Source: a bacterium
GTDB lineage: Bacteria > Sysuimicrobiota > Sysuimicrobiia > Sysuimicrobiales > Segetimicrobiaceae
Reading direction: 5' to 3'
DNA length: 64,000 bases
Assembly: GCA_035307765.1 (NCBI GenBank)
Contig: DATGHU010000044.1
Span: forward strand, 248,001 to 312,000
Shown: one piece after another, positions 16,618-36,492 of the stretch
Numbering within the stretch: the stretch's first letter is position 1
Layout of the letters: every line of letters begins with the position of its first letter
Notes under the pieces: model-generated
What the model was told of the DNA's origin: nothing
Databases searched by the model: none
The model's input: only the letters and a program-made list of their open reading frames with translations
Translations under genes and position numbers: made by a program

Positions 16618-16629
16618 ATCGATTTGACA
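16612..16629. promoter_or_regulatory. Perfect 18-bp palindrome, LacI-type operator
   Basis: TGTCAAATCGATTTGACA is a perfect palindrome with the central CG typical of LacI/GalR operators. It lies in the gap between the LacI-family gene and the divergent FAD oxidoreductase gene. Each half ends in TTGACA on its outward strand, so it carries both divergent -35 boxes. Confidence 0.8.
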
Positions 16630-16650
16630 GAATACCGTCACCTGCATAAT
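16624..16650 (+). promoter_or_regulatory. Rightward promoter of the FAD oxidoreductase operon
   Basis: Consensus -35 TTGACA (16624-16629) formed by the right half of the operator, with a -10-like CATAAT at 16645-16650 and a short 15-bp spacer. It lies 34 bases before the GTG start. Confidence 0.5.
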
Positions 16651-16683
16651 CGGGGGGTGGTTGAGGGTGAAAGGAGGGTGTCC

Positions 16684-18135
16684 GTGCCGGCCCTGATCGA
16701 TGTGGCGGGGGTGGTGCGCGAGGCGGCGCGCGACATTCCGGTTGCCCTGGAGGCGGACGTCCTGATCGTCGGTGGGGGGATCGCCGGCGTCATGGCCGCG
16801 ATCGCCGCCGGCCGCAGCGGCGCGCGGGCGCTGCTGGTGGAGCGGTTCGGGTCGCTGGGGGGGACCGGAACCGCGGCGATGATGAACCTATTCTACGTGC
16901 CGTACGCAGCCTCCCGCGGCCTGATCCGTGAACTCTTCGACCGGCTGATCGGGCGTGGCGGTGCCGTCCCCGGTGAGTTTGTCGTCTACGACCCCGAGCT
17001 CTATAAAGTGACCGCGCTGGAAATGCTCTCCGAAGCCGGCACACGCGTTGTGCTCCACACGCTGCTGAGCGACGTGGTCATGGACGGGCCGACGTTAAGA
17101 GGGGTGGTGGTCGAGAATAAGTCCGGACGTCAGGCGATCCTGAGCCGCGTGACGATCGACGCAAGCGGAGATGCGGATGTCGCCGCCCGCGCGGGTGCGC
17201 CGTACGTCAAAGGCCGCGAGGAAGATGGGAAGATGCGGCCGATGACCCTGATCTTCCGAATGGGAGGGGTGGACGTCCCCCGCTTGGTGCAGTACGTGAG
17301 GGATCACCCGGACGACTTCTCGCCGGATCCGCTGCAGTGCATGCTCGACCTTGAACACGGGATGGTCCGCATCTTCGGATTCTTCAAGCTGGTCGAAGAC
17401 GCCAAGGCCCGGGGCGAGCTGTGGGACGACTGCTACTACTTTCGGGTGGAATCGGTGCTGCCGGAGCGGGGGGTGCTGACCGTGAACGCCACCCGCGTCT
17501 ACGGCGTGGACGGCACCCGGGCGGAGGACCTGTCGCGGGCCGAGATCGAGACCCGGCACCAGATGGTGCAGCTCGCCCACTTTGCGCGTACCCGCATCCC
17601 CGGGTTCGAGCGGGCGTTCATCCTCGACTCCGCGAGCACCATCGGCGTGCGCGAGACGCGCCGGATCCGCGGTGAGTACGTGGTCACCGAGGACGACATC
17701 CTTGCCGGCCGCCGCTACGATGATGTGGTGGCCGTCGACGCGAACCAGCAGAATCCGAGACAGCAGGGCGGGCACTCGCCGGACGGTAAGGAAGGGGGGC
17801 CGCAGGATCGGGAAGCCCGAGAGATGGTCGCCCGGATGTTCGTCTACGAGATCCCCTACCGGTCCCTCGTGCCCCAACGGATCGACGGCCTGCTCGTCGC
17901 GGGGCGTTGCATTTCCGTCGACCACCACGCCGATGTGTACACGCGGAACCAGGGGTGCGCAATGGCCACCGGCATCGCCGCGGGGGCCGCGGCCGCCAAC
18001 GCCACTCGGGCAAGCGGGGCGGTGAGGGCGGTGAACGTCGGGGAGGTTCAGGCAACGCTCCGCGCGCTGGGAATGGATCTCGACCTGCTTCGCCGGCTGG
18101 GCCCGACCCCGGTGACACTTGATGGGGTGAGCTAA
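16684..18135 (+). CDS. FAD-dependent oxidoreductase (PF12831-like), paralogue A
   Basis: A 483-residue flavoprotein. EADVLIVGGGIAGVMAAIAAGRSG binds FAD near the N-terminus, then LVERFGSLGGTGTAAM, VTIDASGDADVAARAGAPY and the C-terminal GLLVAGRCISVDHHADVYTRNQGCAMATG typical of the FAD-dependent oxidoreductase family PF12831. The substrate is unknown. The frame opens at 16624, inside the operator. I chose GTG at 16684 because AAGGAGG (16671-16677) stands 6 bases before it. The paralogue follows after 6 bases. Confidence 0.87.
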   Translation: MPALIDVAGVVREAARDIPVALEADVLIVGGGIAGVMAAIAAGRSGARALLVERFGSLGGTGTAAMMNLFYVPYAASRGLIRELFDRLIGRGGAVPGEFVVYDPELYKVTALEMLSEAGTRVVLHTLLSDVVMDGPTLRGVVVENKSGRQAILSRVTIDASGDADVAARAGAPYVKGREEDGKMRPMTLIFRMGGVDVPRLVQYVRDHPDDFSPDPLQCMLDLEHGMVRIFGFFKLVEDAKARGELWDDCYYFRVESVLPERGVLTVNATRVYGVDGTRAEDLSRAEIETRHQMVQLAHFARTRIPGFERAFILDSASTIGVRETRRIRGEYVVTEDDILAGRRYDDVVAVDANQQNPRQQGGHSPDGKEGGPQDREAREMVARMFVYEIPYRSLVPQRIDGLLVAGRCISVDHHADVYTRNQGCAMATGIAAGAAAANATRASGAVRAVNVGEVQATLRALGMDLDLLRRLGPTPVTLDGVS

Positions 18136-19596: not shown

Positions 19597-19690
19597 GTTG
19601 AATCGGGCTGCCCCGACGTCGTCGGGAGTGGTCGGAGGATGCGGAAAGGGGGGAGAGGTGACCGGGAGCGGTCGGGAGCCGTCCTCGTCC

Positions 19691-19719
19691 TGACTTGCAC
19701 GTGCCACGCGCTCTACAAT
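19691..19719 (+). promoter_or_regulatory. Promoter upstream of the first ABC importer
   Basis: TGACTT (19691-19696), a 17-bp spacer and TACAAT (19714-19719), 21 bases before the ATG at 19741. AAGGAGGT at 19727-19734 is an excellent ribosome site. It may be the main promoter for the run of genes that includes the selenoprotein module. Confidence 0.6.
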
Positions 19720-19740
19720 AGATATAAGGAGGTCAGGCGT

Positions 19741-21135
19741 ATGTTGCGTCAGCCAAGAAACCGGATCGCCGCCGGACTGCTCGCGGTGCTCCTCCTGATG
19801 CCGGTGTTGGTCGGATCCACTCCTCAGCCGTCGCGCGCCGCGGGGATGACGACCCTGACGTTCCTGGGGCCCGACTTCGACGAGTGGATCGCCTTCGTCA
19901 AGGTGGCGAATGAAATCGGCAAGCCCATGGGCATCCAGATAAAACCGGAGTATCTTCCCTGGGATAACGTGTTCCAAAAGGCCTTGATCGACTCCAAATC
20001 CGGCGTGCGGACGTGGGATTACGTGTACATTTACAACACGTGGGTGCCGGGTTTGTCGGCCTCCAAGGCCATCATGCCGATCGATGACTTCCTCAGCACG
20101 TCCGCAAACAGGAACGCGGTCCAGCCCAACGATTTCATTAAAGAGACGACGGCCGGGCTCCAGCTGAACGGGAAGCTGTGGGCCATGCCGATGCTCGCGG
20201 CACCCTATATGCTCGGGTACCGCAGTGACCTGTTCCGCGATGCCGGAGAAAAGAAGGCGTTTCAGGCGAAATACGGGTACGCGCTCACCGTTCCCCAGAC
20301 CTACAAACAGCTGATGGACATCGCGCAGTTCTTCACACGCAAGAAGGGCGATACGCTTGCCGGCAAGCCCCTCGACCAGGATTTCTATGGGCTCGTCATG
20401 GCCAACAAGAGCGGGGGGTTCCTCTTCCATCGCTATGAGCATATCCTCGTGGCGTATGGCGCCGACCTGGTCTACAACACCAAGACGATGCAACCGACCG
20501 CGAACTCGCCGCAGAGCATCGCCGCGGCGAAGTATTACGTTGAACTCCACAAGTACATGCAGCCGGGGACCGAGACCGTCACCGGCGGCGGGGCCGAACG
20601 CGTGATGGCATCCGGCCGCGGCGCGATGGCGATGGACGCGCTGGACAACATGCTGTCCGTGCTTCCCGTGGCGAAGCTCTCCCAGGTGGTCGGCCGGATC
20701 AGCTACGCGCTCCTCCCCACCCAGGTGGCCGCGCGACCTCACGCCAACGTCGGGGATGCGAATGGGCTGGCGATTTACGCGCTGACCCAGCACAAGGAGG
20801 AAGCCTTCAAGCTGGCGACCGCGGTGCTGTCCACCCAGGGGACGAAGGAGGTCATGAAGGAATACCCGGCCCTGGTGCCGATGCGGACCTCGGTCGTCAA
20901 CGATCCGGACGTACGCCGGAACTACCCCGACGTTTTCGCCGCGATGAGCCTGATGCTCAAGGGGAAGCCCTACACCGTGTTCATCCCACCGCTCAAAGAG
21001 TGGATTCAGGCGCAGGATCTCTACGAGCAGGCGCTGTCCGCGGCGATGTCGGGCCAGCAGTCCGTCGAAGATGCGTTGAACGGGGCGCAGGCCAAGGAGG
21101 TCGAGCTGTTCAAGCGGGCCGGCTATATCAAGTAG
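19741..21135 (+). CDS. ABC importer extracellular substrate-binding protein, sugar type (family 1)
   Basis: A 464-residue secreted binding protein. The signal peptide is RIAAGLLAVLLLMPVLVG followed by STPQPSRAA. The mature region has the usual two-lobe family-1 pattern: an early TLTFLGPDFDEWIAFVKVAN strand, YVYIYNTWVPGL, PMLAAPYMLGYRSDLF and a C-terminal helical region ending LFKRAGYIK. It should deliver its ligand to the two permeases that follow. Start ATG 19741 is set by AAGGAGGT; the open frame extends upstream to 19639 through the promoter. Ligand unknown. Confidence 0.88.
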   Translation: MLRQPRNRIAAGLLAVLLLMPVLVGSTPQPSRAAGMTTLTFLGPDFDEWIAFVKVANEIGKPMGIQIKPEYLPWDNVFQKALIDSKSGVRTWDYVYIYNTWVPGLSASKAIMPIDDFLSTSANRNAVQPNDFIKETTAGLQLNGKLWAMPMLAAPYMLGYRSDLFRDAGEKKAFQAKYGYALTVPQTYKQLMDIAQFFTRKKGDTLAGKPLDQDFYGLVMANKSGGFLFHRYEHILVAYGADLVYNTKTMQPTANSPQSIAAAKYYVELHKYMQPGTETVTGGGAERVMASGRGAMAMDALDNMLSVLPVAKLSQVVGRISYALLPTQVAARPHANVGDANGLAIYALTQHKEEAFKLATAVLSTQGTKEVMKEYPALVPMRTSVVNDPDVRRNYPDVFAAMSLMLKGKPYTVFIPPLKEWIQAQDLYEQALSAAMSGQQSVEDALNGAQAKEVELFKRAGYIK

Positions 21136-21199: not shown

Positions 21200-22099
21200 A
21201 TGGGCATGCGGTGGGCCACGCTGGGCAGAGGCCGGCTCTACTTCTGGCTGCTGACATTCCCTGCGGTCTTGTACGTGGTCGTCTGGCGACTGGTGCCCGC
21301 GTTCTACACGCTCTGGCTGAGCATGACCCAGTACAACATCGTCTACGATGCCCTGCCGCGCTGGAATCACTTCGAGAACTTCGGCCGGATCCTGCGCGAT
21401 GGCGGCCTTCGGGGATCCCTGTCCCTCTCCGTGGAGTTCGCCCTCATCGCGACGGCCGCCGAGGTGGTGATCGGATTGGCGGCCGCGCTCTTCTTGGACA
21501 CCGACCCGCCGGGCCGGAACCTGCTCTTGGGGATCTTCTTGCTGCCGATGATCATGGCCCCGGTGGTGGTCGGGACGGCATGGTCCACGCTCTTCGACCG
21601 CACGGTCGGGCCCATCCCCTATCTTGTCCAGCTCCTGCACGGCCCTCAGGTGCCGTGGCTCGCCACCCCTGCTACCGCGATGTTTGCGCTCCTCATCGCG
21701 GATGCGTGGGAGTGGGCCCCGCTCGTCGCCCTGCTGCTGTTCGCCGCGCTGCAGGTCATCCCTCGTGATCAGTTCGAAGCCGCCCGGGTGGACGGCGCAT
21801 CCGCGGGGCAGTTGTTCCTCCGCATCATCCTGCCGCAGATCGCCCGCATGATGGGGGTGGCCGCCGGGCTCCGGGTGATGGACGCGTTTCTGGAGCTCGA
21901 TAAGGTGTTCGTCATGACGGGGGGCGGGCCGGGTACCTCGACGCAGTTCGTCAGCATGTTCGTCTACAACCAAGCGTTTCAGTTCTATGAACTGGGATAC
22001 GCCTCGGCGGTCATCACCGTGGTGCTCGCCTTGCTGGCGGTCGCCTACGGGATGTACCTGCGGAACTACGGCCGATCGCTCAGCCCCGCGGACTCATGA
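21200..22099 (+). CDS. ABC sugar-type permease (MalF/UgpA-like)
   Basis: A 299-residue inner-membrane permease with six predicted helices, beginning LYFWLLTFPAVLYVVVWRLVPAFYTLWLS. The coupling EAA-type loop is visible as EAARVDGASAGQLFLRIILPQI (about 193-214), the site that contacts the ATPase. It follows the binding protein by 64 bases and is paired with the MalG-like permease downstream. No ATPase gene adjoins this pair. Confidence 0.9.
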   Translation: MGMRWATLGRGRLYFWLLTFPAVLYVVVWRLVPAFYTLWLSMTQYNIVYDALPRWNHFENFGRILRDGGLRGSLSLSVEFALIATAAEVVIGLAAALFLDTDPPGRNLLLGIFLLPMIMAPVVVGTAWSTLFDRTVGPIPYLVQLLHGPQVPWLATPATAMFALLIADAWEWAPLVALLLFAALQVIPRDQFEAARVDGASAGQLFLRIILPQIARMMGVAAGLRVMDAFLELDKVFVMTGGGPGTSTQFVSMFVYNQAFQFYELGYASAVITVVLALLAVAYGMYLRNYGRSLSPADS

Positions 22100-22163: not shown

Positions 22164-22193
22164 GCCCCCGGGCCGGCTGGAGAGGAGTCACCG

Positions 22194-23009
22194 ATGAGCG
22201 CACGGAGGCGATGGCGGCACCTCGTGGGGACCGCGCTTGTGCTCGCGTGGACGCTTCCACCGTTTCTTTACCTGGTGATGCTGTCCGTCAAGCCCGAGCG
22301 GATCTTGATCGACCGAGCCCAGGTCCTCTTTTGGCCGACGCTCGAACGGTACAGGGATTTCATCGGCAGCGGGCTGGGGTTGCCGATCTGGAACAGCCTC
22401 GTCACTTCAACGCTCGGCGCGGTCGGCACGCTGATCCTCGGTGGCCTGGCGGCGTTGACGTTCAGCTTCCTCGACTTCAAGGGCAAGACGCTGCTCTTCC
22501 TGCTGATCCTGTTGCCCAGGATGTTCCCGCCCGTGACGACGCTGATCCCGATCCAGTTGATGCTCAAGGGGATGGGCCTCATCGATACGCAGCTGGCGCT
22601 GATCATCTTGTTCACAGGATTTGAGATCCCCCTGGCGATTTGGGTGTTGCGCACGTTCCTCGACGAGATCCCCCGCGAGTTGACGGAAAGCGCGGCGCTG
22701 GATGGTGCGTCCCTGCGGGCGATCATCACGAGAATCATCTTGCCCCTGTCGGGTCCGGGGCTGCTCGCGGCGTTTATTCTGAGTTTCATTTTTAACTGGA
22801 ACGAGTTTCTCTTCCCGTTGATCGTGACAAGTTTCCACGCACGGACGGGTTCGGTGGCCATCATGAGTTTCACCGCCGGATACAAGAAACTCCAATGGGG
22901 GTCGCTCGCGACGCTGGGGGTCGTGATGACGATCCCGGTGATCCTGTTCGTGCTGGCTTTCCGCGCCTCGCTGGTTCGGGGATTTACCGCGGGGGCGCTC
23001 AAAGGGTGA
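22194..23009 (+). CDS. ABC sugar-type permease (MalG/UgpE-like)
   Basis: A 271-residue inner-membrane protein with six predicted helices. N-terminal LVGTALVLAWTLPPFLYLVMLSVKP is typical of the MalG branch, and the coupling loop reads ELTESAALDGASLRAIITRIILPLSGPG. FIFNWNEFLFPLIV is the familiar late-helix motif. ATG at 22194 has AGAGGAG upstream; the longer open frame from 21987 overlaps the first permease and is not used. The selenoprotein gene begins 163 bases later on the same strand. Confidence 0.9.
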   Translation: MSARRRWRHLVGTALVLAWTLPPFLYLVMLSVKPERILIDRAQVLFWPTLERYRDFIGSGLGLPIWNSLVTSTLGAVGTLILGGLAALTFSFLDFKGKTLLFLLILLPRMFPPVTTLIPIQLMLKGMGLIDTQLALIILFTGFEIPLAIWVLRTFLDEIPRELTESAALDGASLRAIITRIILPLSGPGLLAAFILSFIFNWNEFLFPLIVTSFHARTGSVAIMSFTAGYKKLQWGSLATLGVVMTIPVILFVLAFRASLVRGFTAGALKG

Positions 23010-23172: not shown

Positions 23173-24474
23173 ATGCTGCGGGTCGGGCACTACCTCAATC
23201 AGTTCTTCGCCGGTGTGGGAGGCGAGGAGCAGGCACAGACTCCCCCATCCGTCCGCCCCGGCCCGACCGGGCCGGGGCGGTTGCTTCAGTCCCTGCTCGG
23301 AGCGGAGGGCACGGTCGTTTCCACGTGTGTCTGCGGCGATAACTTCTTCAACGAGGAGTTCGAGGCCGCCGCGGCGGAGGCGCGCCGATGGCTCCGGGAG
23401 GCCCGGCCGGACGTGGTCGTGGCGGGGCCGGCGTTTGCGGCGGGGCGCTACGGCCGCGCCTGCGCCGAGGTGTGCCGCCTCGCCGGCGAAGAGGGGATCC
23501 CGGCGGTGACGGGGATGCATCCCGAGAACCCCGGCCTGCTGGTCTACCGGCAGGCGTACGTCGTGCCGACGGGGGACTCCGCGACCGGCATGGCCCCGGC
23601 GATGACGGCGATGGTGCCGTTGGTGCGCAAACTCGGCGGGCGCCTGCCGGTTGGCTCCGCCGAGGTGGAGGGCTACCTCCCGAGGGGCGTGCGCCGGCCC
23701 GGGCCGCGCCCGCGGCCGGGGGCCGAACGCGCCGTGGCGATGCTCGTCGCGCGGATGCGGGGCGAGTCGTTCCTCACGGAGATCCCGGTCGAAGCCTACG
23801 AAGCCGTGGCGCCGGCGCCGGCGCTCGCGGACCTCGCCCACTCGACGATTGCGCTGGTGACGACCGGGGCGATCGTCCCGAAAGGGAACCCCGACCACCT
23901 CAAGCGGTGCAGCGAGACCCGCTGGGCCAAGTACGATTTGGGGAAGCGCTCGGCGCTGACGCCCGAGGAGTTCGAGTGCGTCCACGGCGGCTTCTTCAAT
24001 GTCGTCGCGTGCGGAAACCCGAACGTCGTGCTCCCCCTCGACGTCATGCGCGAGTTGGAGCGTGAGGCCCGGATCGGCCGGTTGATCGAGTTCTACTGCA
24101 CGACAACCGGCAACGACCAGCGGTTGTTGGACTGCCGGCGCAACGGGGAGGAGATCGCCGAAACGTTGCGGAGCGCGCGGGTAGACGGCGTGCTCTTGGT
24201 GGCCACCTGAGGGTCCTGCAATCGTTGCGGTGCAACGATCAGCAAAGAGATCGAACGCCGGAAGATCCCGGTTGCCGTGATCAGCGCGCTCCCGCCCCTC
24301 GCGCTGCAGGCCGGGGCGAACCGGGTGGTGCAGGGCGTGAAGATCGAGCACGTCTGCGGCGATCCGTCGCTGTCGCCAGACGCCGACCGGGCGCTTCGGC
24401 GGCGGCTCGTCGAACGGGGACTTCAGGCCCTGACGATCGACGTGCAGCGTCCCACCCTGATCGGAGGCGGATAA
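23173..24474 (+). CDS. grdB: GrdB-type selenoprotein, glycine/sarcosine/betaine reductase component B (UGA = Sec346)
   Basis: One gene of 434 codons read through an in-frame TGA at 24208-24210. Component B selenoproteins of the GrdB/GrdF/GrdH family bind the amine substrate and pass the two-carbon unit to GrdA. Family blocks are clear before the TGA: YLNQFFAGVGGEE, CVCGDNFFNEE, VVAGPAFAAGRYGRAC, VTGMHPENPG, GGLVPKGNPDHL-like IVPKGNPDHLKR, HGGFFNVVACGNP. The Sec context reads LLVAT-U-GSCNRCGATISKEIER, against the known GrdB pattern TST-U-GTCTRCGATMVKEIER. The frame stays open and conserved for 87 more codons to TAA. GAGGAG precedes ATG 23173. Which amine is used is unknown. Confidence 0.93.
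24208..24210 (+). other. In-frame TGA read as selenocysteine (GrdB-type Sec346)
   Basis: The TGA falls exactly where GrdB-family proteins carry Sec. Downstream codons continue the family sequence (GSCNRCGAT), and a SECIS-like hairpin begins 6 bases later. A true stop would remove about 87 conserved residues including the active site. Confidence 0.92.
24217..24244 (+). promoter_or_regulatory. Bacterial SECIS element of the GrdB-type gene
   Basis: The RNA folds as an upper 8-bp perfect stem (ATCGTTGC 24221-24228 with GCAACGAT 24232-24239) capped by a GGT loop, plus a lower 3-bp stem (TGC/GCA) across a small internal loop. The loop guanine lies 19 bases after the TGA, within the range known for SelB-dependent SECIS elements, which need a G near the start of the apical loop. 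Confidence 0.87.
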
Positions 24475-24481
24475 GCCGAGC

Positions 24482-25819
24482 ATGGAACTCGCGCTGGGAA
24501 CGTTCCCCGTTGAGCGGGTCGTCCTGGGGTCCCCCCCGGGATGGACGGCTGGCCGGCTGGTGGTCGATCCGGCACGCGTCCGGGCGCGCGTCCGCGAAGA
24601 CCCCAGGATCCGAGACGTGGCGGTGGATGTCGTGGCACCCGGCGAGCCGGTGCGGATCATCCACGTCAGGGACATCATCGAGCCGCGCACGAAAGTCGAA
24701 GGCCCGGGGCACACCTACCCGGGGATCTGCGGCCATCCGGTGGAGACCGTGGGCGAGGGGGTGACCCTGCGCTATGCGGGGTTTGGGGTATTGATTGCCT
24801 CCGAGGTTCTTCCGCACATCCGCCGGACGGTCAGCGCGGCCACCGACAGCCTGATCGATATGTCCGGGCCGGGCGCCGTGACCGTCTACAGCACCCTCCG
24901 GTACGTGGTGCTGACCATCGACACCGTCCCCGATCTCGAGCTCACGGAGTGGAACGACGCGCTCCTTCAGGCGGGACACCGTGTCGCGGCCGATCTCGCC
25001 GATCTTCTGCGCGGACAGACCGCGCCGCAGCGGACGCGATACGCGCTGAGTCGGCCGGCGGGAGATTTGCCCCGAGTGGTGCACGTGCACACGCTGAATG
25101 CGTCGATGGTCCCTGGGATCGGCACTGGGATCTACGGGTATACGCGGCACGCCTTGCCGGTCCTCGTGCACCCCAACGAAATGTTGGACGGGGCGATCGC
25201 GGGCGATGCGGTCGTCACCTACCCCGGGAAGTGCACATGGCTCCACGTCAACAACCCGGTGCTGGAGGCCCTCTACCGACGTGACGGGAAGGACCTTGCC
25301 TGGTTGGGGTCGATCGTCTCCCGGACCCGATGGGGAGCGCTCGCCGAGAAGCAGTTGAGCGCCTATCAAACGGTGAAGGCCGCCCAAATGCTCGGGGCCC
25401 AGGGAGCGCTGGTGACCTGGAACCACGGCGGAAACGATCTGATCGAGGTGATGCTGACGATCCAGGGCCTGGAGCGGGCCGGGATCACGACGACCTTTCT
25501 GACGATCGAATCGGACATCAAGGTCGTCCGCATGACCCCCGCCCTGGCGGAAACGGGTTCGTCGGAACCGCCGCTGCTCTTCAGCGTCCCCGAAGCACGG
25601 GCGATCGTCAGCACCGGCACGCTCGCGCCTCCGGAGGAGCTCCCACCGATGCCCCGGGTGGTGGGCGGGGCGACGGTGGTGTTCGATCAGGAGCGGCCGG
25701 ATCTGCGGATCCCGGCCGGGGGCGCACTCGACCTCGAGACGCTGTCGGGGGCGTACTCCCCGATCTTCGGCCACTTTGACAGCTACGGGCTTGGGGTCCA
25801 GAGCTATTTTGACTATTGA
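24482..25819 (+). CDS. grdE: GrdE-type proprotein, component B of glycine/sarcosine/betaine reductase
   Basis: A 445-residue protein of the GrdE/GrdG/GrdI family, which self-cleaves into two subunits at a cysteine to create a pyruvoyl cofactor that forms a Schiff base with the substrate amine. Family blocks: VRIIHVRDIIEPRTKVEGPG, FPGICGHP-like YPGICGHPVETVG, GALVTWNHGGNDLIEVMLTIQG, ARAIVSTG and LPPMPRVVGG, and the terminal FDSYGLGVQSYFDY. Only two cysteine sites stand out. Cys251 (YPGKCTWLHVNNPV) lies close to the cleavage Cys242 reported for clostridial GrdE, so it is the candidate pyruvoyl precursor. It starts 7 bases after the selenoprotein stop, with GGAGG upstream. Confidence 0.88.
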   Translation: MELALGTFPVERVVLGSPPGWTAGRLVVDPARVRARVREDPRIRDVAVDVVAPGEPVRIIHVRDIIEPRTKVEGPGHTYPGICGHPVETVGEGVTLRYAGFGVLIASEVLPHIRRTVSAATDSLIDMSGPGAVTVYSTLRYVVLTIDTVPDLELTEWNDALLQAGHRVAADLADLLRGQTAPQRTRYALSRPAGDLPRVVHVHTLNASMVPGIGTGIYGYTRHALPVLVHPNEMLDGAIAGDAVVTYPGKCTWLHVNNPVLEALYRRDGKDLAWLGSIVSRTRWGALAEKQLSAYQTVKAAQMLGAQGALVTWNHGGNDLIEVMLTIQGLERAGITTTFLTIESDIKVVRMTPALAETGSSEPPLLFSVPEARAIVSTGTLAPPEELPPMPRVVGGATVVFDQERPDLRIPAGGALDLETLSGAYSPIFGHFDSYGLGVQSYFDY

Positions 25820-25846: not shown

Positions 25847-27319
25847 ATGTCGGCCGGCACCGTAGGGCCGCTGCGGCCCGTCGTGCGTGCCGCGCGGTTT
25901 GCGATCGCCCATGTGCCGGGACTGGTGCTGTCCGGCTCCAAGCCCCGGCGCGAGATTGCGGCGGGGGGAGAGGGTGTCCGCGCCGCCTTGCGCGAGCGAC
26001 TGCGGTCGTTCGAGGATGCCGTGGGGTATCCGCCCCACCAAGTCCTGCTGGGCACCCTGGCTCCGGAGGCGCTGAGGGAGATCCCCCGACCGTGGCATCT
26101 CCGGCCGGTGGCGGGGGCCGGGCCGGAGGGCCCGGGTGGGACGATGATCGACGAGCTCGGTTTCTACGCATGGCTCGTTCGAGCCGACCGGGCGCGCCTG
26201 GTACATCTGTCGGAAGAGTTTGCCGCCACCTTGGCGGGGCACCTGGGTGAAACGCGGGTCTCGACGATGAACGCGGACGGCCTGCGCCGCGCGGTGGGAC
26301 AGCGGGGGGAGCCGCTGTACCTAGGCGGCGGTCGGCAGATCGGCGTGGTCGTGCCCGCACACGAGGAGGACGAGTCGCTGGCCGCCCCGGTGCTCCTCGA
26401 GAACCTCGCGGCGAAGGTCACCGGGGCCCTGGCGCTCCGGGGATTGCTGGGGTCGCCCGGCGGGGCGCCGCCCGCCCCGGGAGATGAGTCGGTCGATTAT
26501 CTGATTGGCTGCGGCGAGGAGGCGGTGGGGGACCGCTATCAGCGCGGAGGCGGAAACCTCGCCAAAGCGATGGGCGAGTTGGCGGGGGTGCGGACGGCAG
26601 GCGCGGTTGACGTGAAGGCGTTTTGTGCGAGTCCGTTGCACGGGCTGCTCTTGGCGGGCGCGCTCGTGGCCAGCGGCGTATGGCGCCGGGTGGTCGTCGT
26701 TGCCGGCGGGTCGCTGGCGAAGCTCGGGATGAAGTGTCGCGGCCACCTGGCGGCCGGGTATCCGGTGCTGGAGGATGTCATCGTGGGGATGGCGATCGAC
26801 GTCGCGGCGGACGATGGCCGCAGCCCCGTGCTGCGGTTGGACGCGGCGACCGTCCACCGGATCGCCGACGGGACCGCTCCGCACCAGATGGCGCAGGTGC
26901 TGACGGCGGCCCCACTGCGGGCGGCGGGGCTCAAGCTCGGCGACGTGGACCGGTACGCCGTGGAGCTGCACAACCCGGACATTACGGAACCGGCCGGATC
27001 GGGAGACGTGCCCGCACGCAACTATCAGATGATCGCCGCGCTGGCGATGCAGGCCGGCGAAATTGCCCGGTCCGACATGTCGGCGTTCGCCGCGGCTCAC
27101 GGGATGCCCGGGTTCTCGCCGACCCAAGGCCACATCGCCTCGGCCGTCGCCTACCTGCATCACGCCGTGACCGGCCTGACGCGGGGGTCGTTCAGCCGGG
27201 TGCAGCTGGTCGCGAAAGGCAGCTTGTTCCTGGGACGCATGACCGAGTTGGCGGATGGGGTGAGTATTCTCATGGAGCGCAACGCAGCAGGCGACTCGGA
27301 AGGGAGGAGGAGGGTATGA
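25847..27319 (+). CDS. grdC: GrdC-type protein, glycine reductase complex component C beta subunit
   Basis: A 490-residue FabH-like protein. Strong family blocks: DYLIGCGEEAVGDRYQRGGGNLAKAMGELAG, DVKAFCASPLHGLLLAGALV (candidate acyl-carrying Cys), VVVVAGGSLAKLGMKCRGHL, YAVELHNPDITEPAGSGDVPARNYQMIAALA, HGMPGFSPTQGHIASAVAYLHH and KGSLFLGRMTELADGVSILMERN. In clostridia GrdC works with GrdD to convert the carboxymethyl-Se-GrdA intermediate to acetyl phosphate. No GrdD gene adjoins. ATG at 25847; the stop overlaps the grdA start in an ATGA. Confidence 0.92.
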   Translation: MSAGTVGPLRPVVRAARFAIAHVPGLVLSGSKPRREIAAGGEGVRAALRERLRSFEDAVGYPPHQVLLGTLAPEALREIPRPWHLRPVAGAGPEGPGGTMIDELGFYAWLVRADRARLVHLSEEFAATLAGHLGETRVSTMNADGLRRAVGQRGEPLYLGGGRQIGVVVPAHEEDESLAAPVLLENLAAKVTGALALRGLLGSPGGAPPAPGDESVDYLIGCGEEAVGDRYQRGGGNLAKAMGELAGVRTAGAVDVKAFCASPLHGLLLAGALVASGVWRRVVVVAGGSLAKLGMKCRGHLAAGYPVLEDVIVGMAIDVAADDGRSPVLRLDAATVHRIADGTAPHQMAQVLTAAPLRAAGLKLGDVDRYAVELHNPDITEPAGSGDVPARNYQMIAALAMQAGEIARSDMSAFAAAHGMPGFSPTQGHIASAVAYLHHAVTGLTRGSFSRVQLVAKGSLFLGRMTELADGVSILMERNAAGDSEGRRRV

Positions 27320-27774
27320 TCGATTTCAAGGACAAGCTCGTGCTCGCACTGGGCGAACGGGACGGGATCCCGGCTCCGGCGCTGGTGGCATGCGCGGAAA
27401 GCGCCGGCGGCCGGGTCGTCTACGCCGCCACCGAGTGCTTTGTCTGAACGTCGGCGGGCGCGATGGACCTGGAGGAGCAGGGACGGATTCAGCAGCTCGC
27501 GGGGGGCGGGCAGAGCGATCAGATGATCGTGCTTCTGGGCACCCCGAATGCGAGCAGCACGCTGATGATCGCTCTTACGCTCACGCAGGGCGACCCCAGC
27601 TACGCCGGTCCACTCGCCGGAGTCCCGTTGGGACTCCCCGTCTACCACATTCTCGAAGACCGGGTGAAAGATGCGATCCCCGCCGACGTGTACGAACGTG
27701 AGATCGGGCCGATGGAGTTCGTCCTGGACAAGCCGGGGATCGAGACGGCCCTGGCCAAGACGCGAGGAGGCTGA
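27316..27774 (+). CDS. grdA: GrdA selenoprotein, glycine reductase complex component A (UGA = Sec44)
   Basis: A 152-residue small selenoprotein read through TGA at 27445-27447, codon 44, the position known for GrdA. Sequence around it: VVYAATECFV-U-TSAGAMDLEEQ, matching the GrdA hallmark ECFV-U-TAAGAMDLE. After the Sec the family signatures continue: MIVLLGTPNAS, LTLTQGDPSYAGPLAGVPLGLPVYHILE, VYEREIGPMEFVLD. GrdA carries the carboxymethyl selenoether between component B and component C and is re-reduced by thioredoxin. ATG at 27316 follows GGAGGAGGAGGG and overlaps the grdC stop. Ordinary gene finding would end it at 43 residues or drop it. Confidence 0.95.
27445..27447 (+). other. In-frame TGA read as selenocysteine (GrdA Sec44)
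   Basis: TGA at codon 44, flanked by ECFV before and TSAGAMDLE after, is the invariant GrdA selenocysteine position. Confidence 0.95.
27465..27484 (+). promoter_or_regulatory. Possible SECIS hairpin of grdA (weak)
   Basis: CCTG (27468-27471) pairs with CAGG (27478-27481) around a GAGGAG loop, extended by possible tandem G-A pairs and a G-C pair. The loop G is 25 bases after the TGA. The stem is short. An alternative CGTCG/CGATG stem at 27449-27465 lies too close to the TGA. Confidence 0.3.
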
Positions 27775-27831: not shown

Positions 27832-28944
27832 ATGCGCATCACGCAGATCCGCACGCGGCAGGTGGACGTCCCGCTCCCGCAGCCGTTCTATCCGGCGTGG
27901 GCGCCGGGCCGGGTCGAGACGCAGATCCGGCTCGCCTACCTGCGCATTGACACCGATGCCGGGGTGTACGGGATCGCCGGCCACGAGTTCTTCGGCGCCG
28001 AGGAACAGTGCGTGGCGCGGGTGGCGCGAGACCTGGTGGGCGAAGACCCGCTCCACATCGAAAAGCACGCCGCCACCCTGCGCTTTCTCTGGCCGTACTT
28101 CGGCACGGCAGTGTGGTTCGTGGAGATCGCGCTCTGGGACATTCTGGGGAAGGTGGCGGGTCTGCCCCTCTACCGGCTGCTGGGGAGCGCGCGAGATGCC
28201 GTCGCGGCCTACGCCTCGACCGGCCAGAACCGCACCCCGGCCGAGCGCGCCGACGACGCCCGCCGGCTGCGCGATGCGGGGTTCCGTGCGATCAAGCTCC
28301 GGATCCACAGCGAGTCGATGGCCGAGGACCTGGCACAGGTCGCGGCCGTGCACCAGGCGGTCGGCAACGGGATGGCGATCATGGTGGATGCGAACCAGAC
28401 CGATGTGCACGACGCCCCCTATCCCGGCCCGCACTGGTCGTATCATCGGGCGCTCAGGACGGCGCAGGCGCTGGCGGAGTATGGGATCGAGTGGCTCGAG
28501 GAGCCGTTGCCCCGCCACGACTACGAGGGGCTGCGGAGACTCCGGGCGGCGTCTCCGGTGCCCGTGGCCGGCGGTGAGGTGAACCAGGGATTCGGTGAGT
28601 TGCAGCGGCTCCTCCTGGATGGCTGCTACGACATCCTGCAGCCCGACGTGACGCTGTGCGAGGGATTGCTGCGCATCCGGGCGCTCGCGGCGATGGCGAA
28701 CGCCGCATCGGTGCTCGTCGTCCCCCACACCTGGGGCGATCCGTTGGGCACGGTGGCGAACCTGCACCTGGCGGCGGCGATTCCCAACACCTCGTACTTC
28801 GAATTTCCCCACGACCCGCCGGCGTTTCCCAGCACCGTCTACCAGCAGACGCTCAAGACGCCCCTGGTCGTGGACGACGGGCTGGTGCGCGTGCCCCAGG
28901 AGCCCGGCCTGGGAGTGGAGCTCCAGGACTGGATCTTCGAGTGA
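27832..28944 (+). CDS. Mandelate racemase/muconate lactonizing enzyme-family protein (enolase superfamily)
   Basis: A 370-residue enolase-superfamily enzyme. The N-terminal capping domain is followed by the barrel with FRAIKLRIHSE (Lys155-x-Arg157 rather than Lys-x-Lys), metal ligands Asp186 (MVDANQ), Glu223/224 (WLEEPLPRHD) and Glu249 (VAGGEV), and His299 in VVPHTWGD. The His general base suggests a dehydratase of an acid sugar or a related racemase. ATG at 27832 follows GAAGGAGTGG. It is 57 bases after grdA, so probably part of the same transcript; it could prepare the substrate for, or process the product of, the reductase. Confidence 0.9.
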   Translation: MRITQIRTRQVDVPLPQPFYPAWAPGRVETQIRLAYLRIDTDAGVYGIAGHEFFGAEEQCVARVARDLVGEDPLHIEKHAATLRFLWPYFGTAVWFVEIALWDILGKVAGLPLYRLLGSARDAVAAYASTGQNRTPAERADDARRLRDAGFRAIKLRIHSESMAEDLAQVAAVHQAVGNGMAIMVDANQTDVHDAPYPGPHWSYHRALRTAQALAEYGIEWLEEPLPRHDYEGLRRLRAASPVPVAGGEVNQGFGELQRLLLDGCYDILQPDVTLCEGLLRIRALAAMANAASVLVVPHTWGDPLGTVANLHLAAAIPNTSYFEFPHDPPAFPSTVYQQTLKTPLVVDDGLVRVPQEPGLGVELQDWIFE

Positions 28945-28957
28945 GCCGAGGTGCGCC

Positions 28958-30118
28958 TTGACGGCCGGTCGGGTTCGCGCAGCCACGCTGGTGGCCCCTG
29001 GACGGTACGAGCTTCGCGAGTACCCGGTACCCGACCCGGCGTCGGGATGCGTCCTCGTGCGGATGGAACTGTCGGGGATCTGCGGGACCGATAAGCACAC
29101 CTACCAGGGATACACTACCCAGTACGCCGGAACGGCGACCCCGCGCGAGATCCCATTCCCGATCATTCAAGGGCACGAGAACGTCGGGACAGTGGCCGCC
29201 ATCGGCGGCGACGGTCGCTACGAGGACTTCGAGGGGACCCCGCTGCGTGTCGGCGACCGAGTCGTCGTGGGGGCCAACGTCGTCTGCGGCCGCTGTTATT
29301 ACTGCCGGCACGACTTCCCCTACTACTTCTGTGAACAGATGATCGACTACGGCAACAACATGACCGCGGCGACCCCCCCGCACCTGTTCGGAGGGTGGTC
29401 CCAGTTCCTGTACGTCGTCCCCGGGAGCTTCTTGGTCCGGGTTCCAGACGAGCTTCCATCGGAGATTGCCGTGCTCACCGAGGTCATGGCGGTGACCGTG
29501 GGGCTCGATCGCGCCAAACAGTTCTCTGCCGTGCCGAACGAATCGTTCCTGTTCGACGACACGGTCGTCGTCCTGGGGGTCGGGCCGCTGGGGATGTGCC
29601 ACCTGATCAAGGCCAGGATGCTGGGCGCGGGCACCCTGATCGCGGTGGACTTGTCCGCCTACCGACTCGACATGGCCAAACAGCTGGGCGCGGACTACGT
29701 CATCAACGCCGCCCAAACCACCGCCGCCCAGCGGCTGGGCTTTGTGCGCGACCTCACACACGGCCGGGGCCCGGACGTCGTGATCGAGTGCGCGGGGGTC
29801 CCCCAGGTCATTCCCGAGGCCTTGGAGATGCTCCGGGTCGGCGGGATGCTGGTGGAGGCCGGGAACTTTTCCGACCTGGGTGATGTGGCGATCAGTCCGC
29901 ACCGGCACCTCTGTTCGAAGAACGTGCGGATCCTTGGTGTCGGCGGCGAGGAGGCCGCGGCGTACGGCCCGAGCATGCGGCAGATGGCGCGCTACATGCA
30001 GCACTACCCGTTGCGAGGATTCGTCTCCCACCGGTATCATCTCAAGGACGTTGAGGCCGCCGTCCTCAAGTCCATCGCCCCCGACTCCATGAAGGTCGTG
30101 ATCGACCCCTGGGCCTAA
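28958..30118 (+). CDS. Zinc-dependent alcohol/polyol dehydrogenase (MDR family)
   Basis: A 386-residue medium-chain dehydrogenase. Catalytic zinc ligands lie in GICGTDKH and IIQGHENVG; the structural zinc cysteines are in VCGRCYYCRHDFPYYFC; the NAD-binding Rossmann motif is VVVLGVGPLGMCHLIKA (about 200-217). The acidic residue after the second strand (AVDLSAYRLD) suggests NAD rather than NADP. The start is TTG at 28958, 14 bases after the enolase-superfamily stop, with a GAGCCGAGG purine patch before it. A polyol or hydroxy-acid substrate is likely in this operon. Confidence 0.88.
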   Translation: MTAGRVRAATLVAPGRYELREYPVPDPASGCVLVRMELSGICGTDKHTYQGYTTQYAGTATPREIPFPIIQGHENVGTVAAIGGDGRYEDFEGTPLRVGDRVVVGANVVCGRCYYCRHDFPYYFCEQMIDYGNNMTAATPPHLFGGWSQFLYVVPGSFLVRVPDELPSEIAVLTEVMAVTVGLDRAKQFSAVPNESFLFDDTVVVLGVGPLGMCHLIKARMLGAGTLIAVDLSAYRLDMAKQLGADYVINAAQTTAAQRLGFVRDLTHGRGPDVVIECAGVPQVIPEALEMLRVGGMLVEAGNFSDLGDVAISPHRHLCSKNVRILGVGGEEAAAYGPSMRQMARYMQHYPLRGFVSHRYHLKDVEAAVLKSIAPDSMKVVIDPWA

Positions 30119-30278: not shown

Positions 30279-31160
30279 ATGGCACATCTCGGCTTGTCGA
30301 TCCGCGGGGGGGAGCGGCGGGAAGAGGAGCTCCGGTTCGCCCGCCGGGTGGGATACACGGCCGCGGAGATCAGCATGGATGGGACGGGCCTCATCTTCGG
30401 AGGGCGGCTGCACCCCCAACTGTTGGGGGAGGCCCTCCATGGCTTCGCCAAACACGATTTCCGCTACTCGGTGCACAGCCCCAGCAGCCTGGACCTGCGC
30501 GACCGCGCCAACCGCGAGATTCAGCTCGCGCTGGCGCGGTCGAGCCTCGAGTTCTGCCGGGCGGTCGGAGGGCGCGTGCTCGTGCTCCACTTCGAGCAGC
30601 GGAGCGAGGATCCTGAGGACGAGGATGCGTTCGAGGATGGAATCCGCAAGCTCTCCGACGAGGCCGGGGACGTGCTTCTGGGGATCGAGAACATCGAGGT
30701 CGAGCGGGTTGAGCCGGTGATCGACTGTGTCCGTCGTCTCGACCGCCCGAACGTGGCGATGACCTTCGACGTCGGCCACGCGTTCCTCGCCTCCGCGTAC
30801 TTCCGATTCGACTTCTTCGAGGCGATTCGGGCCGCCCTCCCCTACGTCCGGCACCTCCACGTCAACGACAACTTCGGGCGGTACGATCCGCTCCGCCTCG
30901 AGAACTTCACCCTTTACCGAACCCAGTCGTCGGCCGATACGTTCCCTCTAGGGAAGGGTGACCTCCACCTCCCGGTGGGTTGGGGGGGGATTCCACTCGA
31001 AAAGGTGTTCGATGTGCTGCGGGGATACCGGGGGAGCGTGATCCATGAATATCGCTACGCCAATTTTCTGGCGTCCGTGGAGGATGATTACGGCCGGATG
31101 CGAACTTTGCTGGCCGCCCTCGACGAACCGGGAACCCCCGGAGATGGCAGAGGGAGGTGA
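30279..31160 (+). CDS. TIM-barrel sugar phosphate isomerase/epimerase-like protein (AP endonuclease 2 fold)
   Basis: A 293-residue xylose isomerase-like TIM barrel. Metal-site segments are recognisable: YSVHSPSS, VLVLHFEQ, LGIENIEVE, MTFDVGHAF, VRHLHVNDNFG and VIHEYRY, giving the His/Glu/Asp set typical of this family (isomerases, epimerases, IolE/IolI-like enzymes). ATG at 30279 has CAGGGAGGA upstream. A 160-base gap separates it from the dehydrogenase; direction and theme match the catabolic run. The precise reaction is open. Confidence 0.85.
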   Translation: MAHLGLSIRGGERREEELRFARRVGYTAAEISMDGTGLIFGGRLHPQLLGEALHGFAKHDFRYSVHSPSSLDLRDRANREIQLALARSSLEFCRAVGGRVLVLHFEQRSEDPEDEDAFEDGIRKLSDEAGDVLLGIENIEVERVEPVIDCVRRLDRPNVAMTFDVGHAFLASAYFRFDFFEAIRAALPYVRHLHVNDNFGRYDPLRLENFTLYRTQSSADTFPLGKGDLHLPVGWGGIPLEKVFDVLRGYRGSVIHEYRYANFLASVEDDYGRMRTLLAALDEPGTPGDGRGR

Positions 31161-34147: not shown

Positions 34148-35233
34148 GTGGCGCGCCTCTCGATCTCCCAGGTCACCAAGATATTTGGGGCGCAGGCGGC
34201 GGTGCACGACGTCACACTCGAGGTGGGCGACGGCGAGCTGATGTGCCTGCTCGGCCCGTCGGGATGCGGAAAGACGACCACCCTGCGGATGATCGGCGGG
34301 TTCACGGTCCCGGACGGGGGAGACATCCAGATCAACGGGCGAAGCATCGTGGCCCTCCCTCCGGAAAAGCGGCCGACGGCGATGGTGTTCCAACGGTACA
34401 ACTTGTGGCCCCACATGACCGTCGCCGGCAACATCGCGTTCGGATTGAAGTTGCGGCGGCTTTCCAAAGAGGCGATCGACGCGAAGGTTCGTGATGTCCT
34501 CGTACTGGTCGGCCTGCCGGGCTCGGCGGAAAAATACCCGCACCAACTGTCGGGCGGGGAGCAGCAGCGCGTCGCGGTGGCCCGCGCGCTTGTCCTGGAG
34601 CCGCAGATCTTGCTCCTCGATGAACCCTTCAGCAACCTTGACGCGCGCCTCCGGGTTCGCATGCGGGAGGAGGTGAAGCTGCTCCAGCGCAAGGTCGGTA
34701 TCACCACGGTGTTCGTCACCCACGACCAGGAGGAAGCGCTTTCCATCGCGGACCGCATCGCGGTGATGAAGGGCGGGGTGTTGGAGCAGGTCGATACCCC
34801 TGACACGCTGTATGCCCGGCCGCAGACATTATTTGTCGCCGACTTCATCGGAACCATGAACCTCATCCCCGCCCGCGTGCACGCCCCGCGGGAGCTCGCG
34901 GCGGGATCGTGGCGGCTGACACTGCCCGACGGCCGGTGGCCCGCCGGGAGCGAGGTCACGCTCGCCGTCCGTCCCGAGGATCTCGTGGTGGATTCGCAGG
35001 GGGCGCCGGTCAGGATTCGCCGCGTCATCAACCTCGGCCACTACCTGCAGGTGCTTCTCGACTGCCCCGGAGTGGCGGCCCTCAGAATGTTCACCGGCAA
35101 GGGTGCGGTGTTTACGGAGGGGCAGGAGATGCGCCTCGGGATCGCCCGCGGGCTCGCCTTCTATGGAACTGAGATGATCGAACTCGGCGGGCCGATGCGC
35201 CCCGCGGTCGCCGCGCCTACGGACCGCGCGTGA
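34148..35233 (+). CDS. ABC importer ATPase with TOBE domain (PotA/MalK-like)
   Basis: A 361-residue nucleotide-binding subunit. Walker A GPSGCGKTT (about 36-44), Q-loop VFQRYNLWPHM, signature LSGGEQQRVAVARAL, Walker B ILLLDEPFSNLD, and switch histidine in VTHDQEEA are all intact. A C-terminal TOBE-like regulatory region follows (about 270-355). GTG start at 34148. It serves the adjacent PotBC-type permeases and, because the first importer (19.7-23.0 kb) has no ATPase of its own, might energise that one too (inference). Confidence 0.94.
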   Translation: MARLSISQVTKIFGAQAAVHDVTLEVGDGELMCLLGPSGCGKTTTLRMIGGFTVPDGGDIQINGRSIVALPPEKRPTAMVFQRYNLWPHMTVAGNIAFGLKLRRLSKEAIDAKVRDVLVLVGLPGSAEKYPHQLSGGEQQRVAVARALVLEPQILLLDEPFSNLDARLRVRMREEVKLLQRKVGITTVFVTHDQEEALSIADRIAVMKGGVLEQVDTPDTLYARPQTLFVADFIGTMNLIPARVHAPRELAAGSWRLTLPDGRWPAGSEVTLAVRPEDLVVDSQGAPVRIRRVINLGHYLQVLLDCPGVAALRMFTGKGAVFTEGQEMRLGIARGLAFYGTEMIELGGPMRPAVAAPTDRA

Positions 35234-36492
35234 CCGGAACCCCCCGATCGTCCGGCCCGGCATCCGTCCGGGCCGGGGATGTCTTCGAGCACACGTTTGC
35301 GGTCGATCTTCCCGGCGAGGCGTGCGCTTCGCTCACCCTGGCCGCACCCGGAACGTCCTGGCGGGATGCGCGGGTCGCCGTCGTCGAGATCGAGGTCGAC
35401 GATCGGGACCCGCAGGAGGTGATCCTGGCCGGCGGTGAAGAGCCGACCGAGTACCTCCGGTTCCTCGGGCGTCTCGCCGCGGGTTCCCACCGGCTGCGGC
35501 TCCGGATCCGGCCGGATCTCACGGCATCCGATGCCGCCGCGGTGACGGTACACGGGGTGCGGCCGCGGTCCGTGGGAGATGAGGATCCCATCGCATCCAT
35601 CTGGCGGCACGCGCCCGTAGTGCACTACCGGGCCGTCACCAGCCCGTTGGACAGCCTGACCTCGGACACGCCGCTCCTGCTCTTCTATCGGACCGGATCC
35701 GACGCCCTCGGCACCGTTATCGAGTACCACCTCATCTTCAGCCACGAGGATGCGGGGACCGACCTCCCCGGACTGCTCGCCCGCTGGGGGCACACGGTCG
35801 ACATCGAGTGGGCGTTCCGGGTCACCCTCGACGGCGCCGGCCGCCCGATCCGCGAGGAGGTGCAGGGGCCGGAACACCGCACCCTGCCCTATGCCGGGGG
35901 CCGGGCGCTGGGCGGGCACCCGGTCCTGCAGGTCGCCACCCTCAACGGGACGTTCACCGACCAGGTCCGGTCGCGCTTTCGTGGGGCGCTGGGACCGGCG
36001 TGCGCGCAGCCCGAAGGGGAGCCGCGCGAAGGGGTGCTGCAGCGGTTTCCCTGGATCTACCGGGTCAGCGCGCTCGAGGTGCTCCGCCAGGTCCCGCTCG
36101 ATCCCGACCCGTCACCGCACTCGCGGGGACCGGCCGACCTTCGATCGTACGTCTACGTGCAGTGGAAGCGCCCCCCCGGGACGGAGCTGCCGCTCGAGGC
36201 CGCCGTCCGCGTGGAGGGCATCTGGTACACATCGGCGTGGGGGCAGCCCGGCTTGGCTTTCACCGACCCGGATGGGGAAAGCACGGCGGTGAAGGTGCCG
36301 GTCGGCACGGATGAAGCGACCATCACGGGCATCGCGCTGCGCGCGTTCCGCCCGCCGGGGGCAGCGCTCGCCGTGAAGCTGGTGCGCGCCTTCCTCCTCG
36401 ACGACCGCTACGGTCCTCGTCCCTCCTTCGCCGCGGGCGGGGTCCGCCTCACCCACGATCAACCGCATGCGGTGGCGTGGGAGCGCGTCTAG
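35230..36492 (+). CDS. Protein of unknown function, 420 residues, cotranscribed with ABC importer
   Basis: A 420-residue protein without a signal peptide or membrane helices. The start is GTG at 35230 inside the ATPase stop (GTGA overlap), so it is translated with the transporter. The N-terminal about 110 residues look like a beta-sandwich (FEHTFAVDLPGEACASLTLAAPG, GSHRLRLRIRPDL). The following segment has HAPVVHYR, LLLFYRTGSD and VIEYHLIFSHEDAGTDLPGLLARWGHTVDIEWAFRV, reminiscent of eukaryotic-like Vps62-type or carbohydrate-recognition folds, but I cannot name the family. Its context suggests binding or processing of the imported ligand. Confidence 0.7.
   Translation: MTGTPRSSGPASVRAGDVFEHTFAVDLPGEACASLTLAAPGTSWRDARVAVVEIEVDDRDPQEVILAGGEEPTEYLRFLGRLAAGSHRLRLRIRPDLTASDAAAVTVHGVRPRSVGDEDPIASIWRHAPVVHYRAVTSPLDSLTSDTPLLLFYRTGSDALGTVIEYHLIFSHEDAGTDLPGLLARWGHTVDIEWAFRVTLDGAGRPIREEVQGPEHRTLPYAGGRALGGHPVLQVATLNGTFTDQVRSRFRGALGPACAQPEGEPREGVLQRFPWIYRVSALEVLRQVPLDPDPSPHSRGPADLRSYVYVQWKRPPGTELPLEAAVRVEGIWYTSAWGQPGLAFTDPDGESTAVKVPVGTDEATITGIALRAFRPPGAALAVKLVRAFLLDDRYGPRPSFAAGGVRLTHDQPHAVAWERV

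Follow-up and report, generated by a model that had tools for sequence, protein, structure and literature searches.

A grd operon with two predicted in-frame selenocysteine codons

We analyzed a 64,000-nucleotide stretch of a draft Segetimicrobiaceae genome (Sysuimicrobiota, an uncultivated phylum), contig DATGHU010000044.1, positions 248,001 to 312,000 (hereafter the window). In it the genes grdB, grdG, grdC and grdA form a tight operon in that order, with grdA last and its ATG overlapping the grdC stop (ATGA). The features of the operon and its surroundings are:

15416-16579, minus strand: LacI-family regulator, divergent to the cluster (PF00356/PF13377)
16624-18135, plus strand: FAD-dependent oxidoreductase, upstream (PF12831); a neighbor also in locus L035
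18142-19596, plus strand: second FAD-dependent oxidoreductase (PF12831); a related neighbor in locus L036
19639-23009, plus strand: ABC sugar-type importer directly 5' of grdB (PF01547/PF13416, PF00528), made up of a binding protein (19639-21135) and two permeases (21200-22099 and about 22191-23009)
23173-24474, plus strand: grdB, selenoprotein B (component B beta), 433 aa (TIGR01918, 443 bits, cut-off 65; PF07355, 392 bits)
24221-24239, plus strand: SECIS-like hairpin of grdB, 8-bp stem and 3-nt loop, 13-31 nt after the U of the UGA
24482-25819, plus strand: grdG/grdE-like component B alpha, 445 aa (PF09338, 250 bits; best NCBIfam match GrdG, 153 bits, cut-off 780)
25847-27319, plus strand: grdC, component C beta, 490 aa, thiolase/KAS-like (NF040746, 499 bits, cut-off 450)
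27316-27774, plus strand: grdA, selenoprotein A, 152 aa (PF04723 and NF040748, both over cut-off)
27468-27481, plus strand: a weak SECIS candidate for grdA, a hairpin with stem CCUG/CAGG (4 bp) located 23-36 nt past the U of the UGA
27832-28944, plus strand: enolase-superfamily, sugar-acid dehydratase-like protein (PF13378/PF02746); 80-84% identical neighbors in genomes G023, G024 and G029
28958-30118, plus strand: zinc alcohol dehydrogenase (PF08240/PF00107); 79-84% identical neighbors in G023, G024, G029, G030 and G033
30279-31160, plus strand: xylose-isomerase-like TIM barrel (PF01261, 103 bits)

A first-pass annotation had read the last gene of the operon as a GrdA whose TGA occupies the same codon, number 44, as in known GrdA proteins, and which standard gene calling misses because the frame is split 43/108. 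All of this is borne out, and the GrdA of Peptoclostridium acidaminophilum likewise carries its TGA at codon 44. With the TGA (27445-27447) translated as selenocysteine (Sec), the product consists of 43 residues, U and a further 108 residues, with the redox motif CxxU in the context ECFV-U-TSAGAMDLE. It matches Pfam PF04723 (GRDA) at E=1.3e-51 and 174.7 bits (cut-off 22), residues 4-150 aligning with positions 1-147 of the 147-position profile, and NCBIfam NF040748 at 175.5 bits (cut-off 130); these matches are not due to chance. Judged by its sequence, the frame is a GrdA with a predicted in-frame Sec codon.

The Sec codon is conserved without exception. Among 43 Sysuimicrobiota genomes, all from one order, 11 carry a total of 12 full-length GrdA genes, and the TGA lies at the identical codon in every one of them. 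It is likewise present in 97 of 97 site-spanning GrdA found outside the phylum, P. acidaminophilum among them (near-copies counted; 13 of 98 sequences were missed by the regular expression and read by eye, 12 showing U and one being truncated at a contig end). Neither a Cys codon nor a frameshift, either of which would have spoken against the first-pass reading, was seen at this site in the 12 copies from the phylum or the 97 others, in agreement with the reported absence of Cys-form GrdA (PMC1794560). Within the clade of the window, GrdA identity is 71-87% on both sides of the TGA. A search of 50,697 phage records gave no GrdA match, and searches by sequence for solved structures gave none for GrdA and none for the B-alpha subunit. 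In one relative (L112:1184-1630) RFVU replaces CFVU, so that the Cys of the CxxU motif is an Arg.

The operon contains a second Sec gene. In grdB the Sec is codon 346 (TGA 24208-24210) within the motif LVAT-U-GSCNRCGA (UGSCNRC), and this TGA is kept in 12 of 12 relatives. The predicted hairpin that follows is 87% paired (by cells) in 71 distinct GrdB sequences, a figure that falls to 55% at most when the hairpin is slid, and the same 71 sequences show covariation in the form of compensatory G-C/U-A and U-A/C-G exchanges; its z-score is -2.6 on hand-picked bounds. By these sequence measures grdB has what is expected of a bacterial SECIS element, a hairpin close after the UGA. The grdA candidate is 82% paired across 91 distinct GrdA sequences, versus at most 53% when slid, with little covariation and a z-score of -2.8 on hand-picked bounds that is not significant over 53 nt. 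Since an Rfam scan of the window gave no match, the support for both elements comes from our own pair counts. The first-pass annotation had passed over both this second Sec gene and the absence of GrdD described below, the latter being the more interesting point.

Component B and component C

Glycine reductase is known from textbooks as the selenoenzyme with which strict anaerobes form acetyl phosphate and, from it, ATP. The complex encoded here shares with the glycine reductase of Acetoanaerobium and Peptoclostridium (GrdABCDE) the CxxU motif of GrdA with Sec44, the UxxCxxC motif of GrdB, GrdC, a GrdE-type subunit and the Sec machinery. It differs in having no GrdD, no acetate kinase and no pyruvoyl cysteines, and in belonging to a separate clade. 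In the alignment, the pyruvoyl site of B-alpha reads GDAVVTYPGK, both cysteines missing, in place of the SGNCVSACDK or SGNCVAPCDK of A. noterae, Photobacterium and P. acidaminophilum. The GrdB pocket has HGGFFN/TTGNDQ where Acetoanaerobium and Peptoclostridium have HGGYDP/TVGNGT; more generally, the motifs VHGGFFN/TTGNDQ of the window clade are unlike those of the glycine, sarcosine and betaine references, which suggests that the substrate of component B is probably neither glycine nor sarcosine. The glycine-type GrdB motifs are given as AHGGxD and TxGNxT (PMC9751293), and against the glycine-type model TIGR01917 GrdB scores 416 bits, under the cut-off of 602.

Like the sarcosine reductase GrdFG of P. 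acidaminophilum, GrdB belongs to the TIGR01918 family, and the best NCBIfam subfamily hits are to GrdF, at 436 bits, and to GrdG, at 153 bits; both lie far below the cut-offs of 800 and 780, and IHGGYDR, TTGTGT and SGNCV.PCDK are absent. The B-alpha of betaine reductase (GrdHI) also lacks the glycine-type double-cysteine motif, yet the GrdH match is 373 bits (cut-off 775) and IHAGFD/TVGTGT is absent here. The fluoroacetate reductase FarEB of Cloacibacillus has a substrate-specific component B of the same family, and FarE is reported to lack the two processing cysteines, as B-alpha does here (PMC10838667). The FarE model nevertheless gives just 62 bits against a cut-off of 675, the CxxC that GrdB has here is reported to be lacking in FarB, and Far works on a canonical glycine reductase background, unlike the present complex. 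The NCBIfam cut-offs, the motifs and the lack of GrdD led us to reject a canonical reductase for glycine, sarcosine or betaine. Because GrdD, the pyruvoyl motif, the substrate motifs and acetate kinase were all looked for and not found, we set the complex apart from these three reductases; by profile and motif, GrdA, GrdB and GrdC are members of their families, and the complex appears as a variant of the glycine reductase kind. In Nitrospinota, Tectomicrobia, SAR202 and some others, GrdB reads UGTGTRSG or UGTSTRSG, both cysteines of UxxCxxC being gone (L052, L054, L057, L058, L062, L063, L065, L067, L078, L086, L089 and L096); FarB is also reported to lack CxxC.

GrdC has a predicted Cys260-His375-His429 site and lacks the C-terminal tail. 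Its AF2 model (pLDDT 90) matches thiolase/KAS structures in the PDB, as well as OleA and type III PKS, and the context of Cys260 is FabH-like. With the beta-ketoacyl-ACP synthase III/thiolase superfamily GrdC has the fold and the nucleophilic Cys in common, whereas identity is only about 13-16%, TM-scores are 0.31-0.56, a long N-terminal region is present and GrdC acts with GrdA. The Cys-His-His set is the arrangement of KAS I/II. It occurs in 74 of 78 readable GrdC from loci without GrdD, the first His in ELHNPE and the second in TQGHIAS; GrdC partnered with GrdD has Cys-Gln-His in 3 of 3 cases (only three sequences could be compared), the Gln lying in EMQNPD. The exceptions are four SAR202-type GrdC that are GrdD-less yet keep the Gln. 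Past the last core motif, the tail is 39-42 aa in GrdD-bearing systems versus mostly 5-17 aa in GrdD-less ones, some longer apparent tails among the latter being cases in which the frame runs on. These patterns suggest that the tail of GrdD-partnered GrdC may contact GrdD and that His375 could restore acyl transfer by GrdC itself. In an Acidimicrobiaceae locus (L114:8226-9944), the GrdC frame continues into a thioredoxin domain, an apparent GrdC-thioredoxin fusion.

Absence of GrdD, acetate kinase and phosphotransacetylase

In clostridia, GrdD turns the GrdC thioester into acetyl phosphate. With the GrdD model NF040747 (cut-off 350 bits), no match over cut-off was obtained genome-wide in the 43 Sysuimicrobiota genomes, including this one, nor in 50 GrdA-bearing genomes of other phyla, a set that was found with window-clade patterns and in which GrdD-bearing GrdA may be under-sampled. 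The strongest hits in the 43 and 50 genomes reach at most 30 bits and are PlsX-like, whereas the positive controls A. noterae, Photobacterium and E. gilvus score 549-581 bits. In GrdD-bearing references grdD directly adjoins grdC; none of the surveyed grd neighborhoods contains a GrdD match. A second PlsX-like protein (contig C37) was examined as a possible unrecognized GrdD and rejected, as the GrdD model does not match it and its gene lies among core genes, next to a set encoding a ketosynthase, a dehydrogenase and a CoA-transferase-like protein.

Acetate kinase (PF00871) was not found in the genome of the window, although it is present in 9 of 14 control genomes, and the lone phosphotransacetylase (Pta) hit overlaps the PlsX gene at a 24-bit threshold, that is, it is a cross-hit. 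As GrdD, AckA and Pta were not found, this genome, to the extent that a 51-contig draft of 96% completeness can show it, does not encode the usual route in which an acyl thioester gives acetyl phosphate and finally ATP. Single absences could be assembly gaps at this completeness, but the pattern over 93 genomes argues against it. Among open-licence papers, our searches turned up neither a GrdD-less complex nor any Grd system in Sysuimicrobiota.

Distribution and phylogeny

A GrdA-alignment scan of species genomes yielded 90 relatives, of which 80 were kept. They come from Rokubacteria, Nitrospinota, Tectomicrobia, Actinomycetota, Chloroflexota (including SAR202), Planctomycetes and others, together with several ‘Deltaproteobacteria’ and one bin each labelled Gemmatimonadetes and Betaproteobacteria. 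The statement in the first-pass annotation that GrdA is very rarely reported outside Clostridia-like anaerobes has to be given up in view of these relatives, and GrdA was already listed in 2006 in Deltaproteobacteria, Spirochaetes and Symbiobacterium (PMC1794560). Because the scan patterns (GERDG and CTSAGA) were taken from the clade of the window, clostridial GrdA (GDRDG, CTAAGA) lay outside the search, and for reference operons we turned to plasmid records, namely those of P. acidaminophilum, A. noterae, Photobacterium and E. gilvus.

In a tree of GrdA and GrdC, all three references that carry GrdD group in a single clade (100/100), and the window falls in a separate clade of 10 rows (100/100); the tree of GrdA alone agrees. 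The phylogeny that the first-pass annotation had proposed thus places this GrdA in a clade of its own, not nested within clostridial, enterococcal or Photobacterium GrdA. Loci L032-L034, from another Sysuimicrobiota family, are placed apart, with Chloroflexi and Deltaproteobacteria, so that at least two acquisitions of the system by this phylum are probable. Two of them (L033 and L034) have the full pyruvoyl motif and a glycine-type GrdB (CHGGYDP, TVGNAT), yet no GrdD. As a whole, L032-L034 represent a glycine-reductase-like cluster of a distant clade, with pyruvoyl motif and thioredoxin-reductase gene and no GrdD. One genome (G023) has two grd clusters, the second of which (L040) shows another gene order, a divergent GrdB and a second GrdG-like gene nearby.

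Genome context and gene neighborhood

The genome encodes Sec machinery: a tRNA-Sec, selA (501 bits) and selB (333 bits) on one contig, and selD (contig C34:292205-293125), which carries its own in-frame TGA, so that SelD is probably itself a selenoprotein. A second component-B pair, grdG2-grdB2, lies on contig C18 (7078-9694 of locus L158) and is without its own grdA or grdC. The Sec TGA of grdB2 is found in LTAT-U-GTCNRCGA, and the grdG2 alpha subunit reads SGDYWIACHRV, with one of the two cysteines only. Despite the two B pairs there is a single grdA in the genome, so a single A and a single C may serve both substrate-specific B components. With grdA and two grdB genes, three Grd frames of this genome are broken by TGA, an indication of how easily Grd operons are mis-annotated. 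Three COX1-family matches (542, 511 and 174 bits) indicate that the genome encodes heme-copper oxidases. The paper describing the phylum regards Sysuimicrobiota as probable facultative anaerobes and reports that Segetimicrobiaceae reach their highest abundance in soils; it mentions neither Grd nor selenium (PMC11604079).

The dehydratase and zinc alcohol dehydrogenase genes are kept near the operon in related genomes. Other related loci have MocA-type dehydrogenases, TIM-barrel isomerase-like proteins, FAD oxidoreductases, sugar- or peptide-type ABC importers and a creatininase-family hydrolase. From its gene content the neighborhood looks catabolic, and no single substrate follows. Sarcosine derived from creatinine or hydantoin (creatininase-family neighbors in G023, G024 and G033) and sugar conjugates (sugar ABC genes) were both considered as substrates and rejected as inconsistent across loci. 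Elsewhere in the window, a 420-aa open frame after an ABC importer (35230-36492) has no Pfam match.

Proposed mechanism and alternatives

We propose, with moderate confidence, a GrdD-less, selenium-dependent reductase of the glycine/sarcosine/betaine type in which GrdC itself passes on the acyl group, most likely to CoA or another thiol. The ligand of component B, which consists of the GrdB Sec protein and its GrdG-like partner, would be a small 2-substituted carboxylate, probably a betaine-like compound or an N-substituted glycine, and its binding would involve no pyruvoyl Schiff base. By homology, the GrdB selenol would displace the leaving group and the carboxymethyl group would move to Sec44 of GrdA, where attack by Cys41 would release a ketene-equivalent acyl group to Cys260 of GrdC; thioredoxin would then re-reduce GrdA. 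The transfer from GrdB to the Sec of GrdA and the ketene-type attack are the established mechanism of glycine reductase (outlined in PMC13188914). The final step would be peculiar to this complex: its fold and its intact Cys-His-His site of thiolase/KAS type suggest that from GrdC the acyl group goes to CoA or another thiol. If so, the complex would feed carbon into central metabolism and yield no ATP via acetate kinase.

One alternative is an ordinary glycine, sarcosine or betaine reductase of the Stickland type, with GrdD and acetate kinase missed in the draft or replaced by an unrelated phosphotransacetylase. GrdA, GrdB and GrdC are clear family members and the genome is in 51 contigs and incomplete, as this alternative would have it. 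We nonetheless consider it quite improbable, given that GrdD is missing from 43 and 50 genomes with a working positive control, that grdD sits directly beside grdC wherever references have it, that AckA and Pta are lacking too, and that GrdC has lost the tail and has a changed site. GrdC could instead be a condensing enzyme that couples the ketene-derived acyl group held by Cys260 with a further acyl carrier or thioester, in a biosynthetic or chain-building route. GrdC matches FabH around the nucleophilic Cys, its predicted fold resembles KAS/thiolase, OleA and type III PKS, and its Cys-His-His set is that generally known from KAS I/II; the absence of any consistently linked acyl carrier, CoA ligase or ketoreductase, and neighbors of catabolic appearance (importers, dehydratase, dehydrogenases), make such a role improbable as well.

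It is also unlikely, if less markedly so, that the complex serves to detoxify or assimilate one specific 2-substituted acetate or N-substituted compound, in the manner of fluoroacetate reductase, energy being irrelevant and the acyl thioester being hydrolyzed. The lack of both processing cysteines in FarE as in B-alpha (PMC10838667), the heme-copper oxidases of the genome and the soil origin of relatives are all compatible with such a function, but the conserved sugar- or peptide-type importers and catabolic enzymes suggest nutrition. That grdA is decayed, with a real stop at codon 44, we regard as close to negligible: despite the weakness of the hairpin predicted after its UGA, identity within the clade is 71-87% on either side of the TGA, the codon is universal, the Sec machinery is complete and the operon holds another Sec gene.

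Going beyond the GrdD-less reductase that we favor for this locus, we put forward a broader conjecture, to which we give somewhat less than an even chance. In a GrdD-less branch from soil, marine and groundwater settings that spans many phyla, selenium chemistry may convert 2-substituted acetates straight to acyl-CoA (or to a condensation product), which would form on a GrdC with a Cys-His-His site; the route would serve carbon assimilation rather than Stickland ATP formation. The GrdD-less version, which occurs here in a genome with terminal oxidases and is spread over many uncultivated lineages, would mean that the selenium chemistry of glycine reductase is also used differently, and for other substrates. 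The operon directs attention to the acceptor of GrdC, to His375 and the missing tail as a putative switch, and to the ligand of component B.
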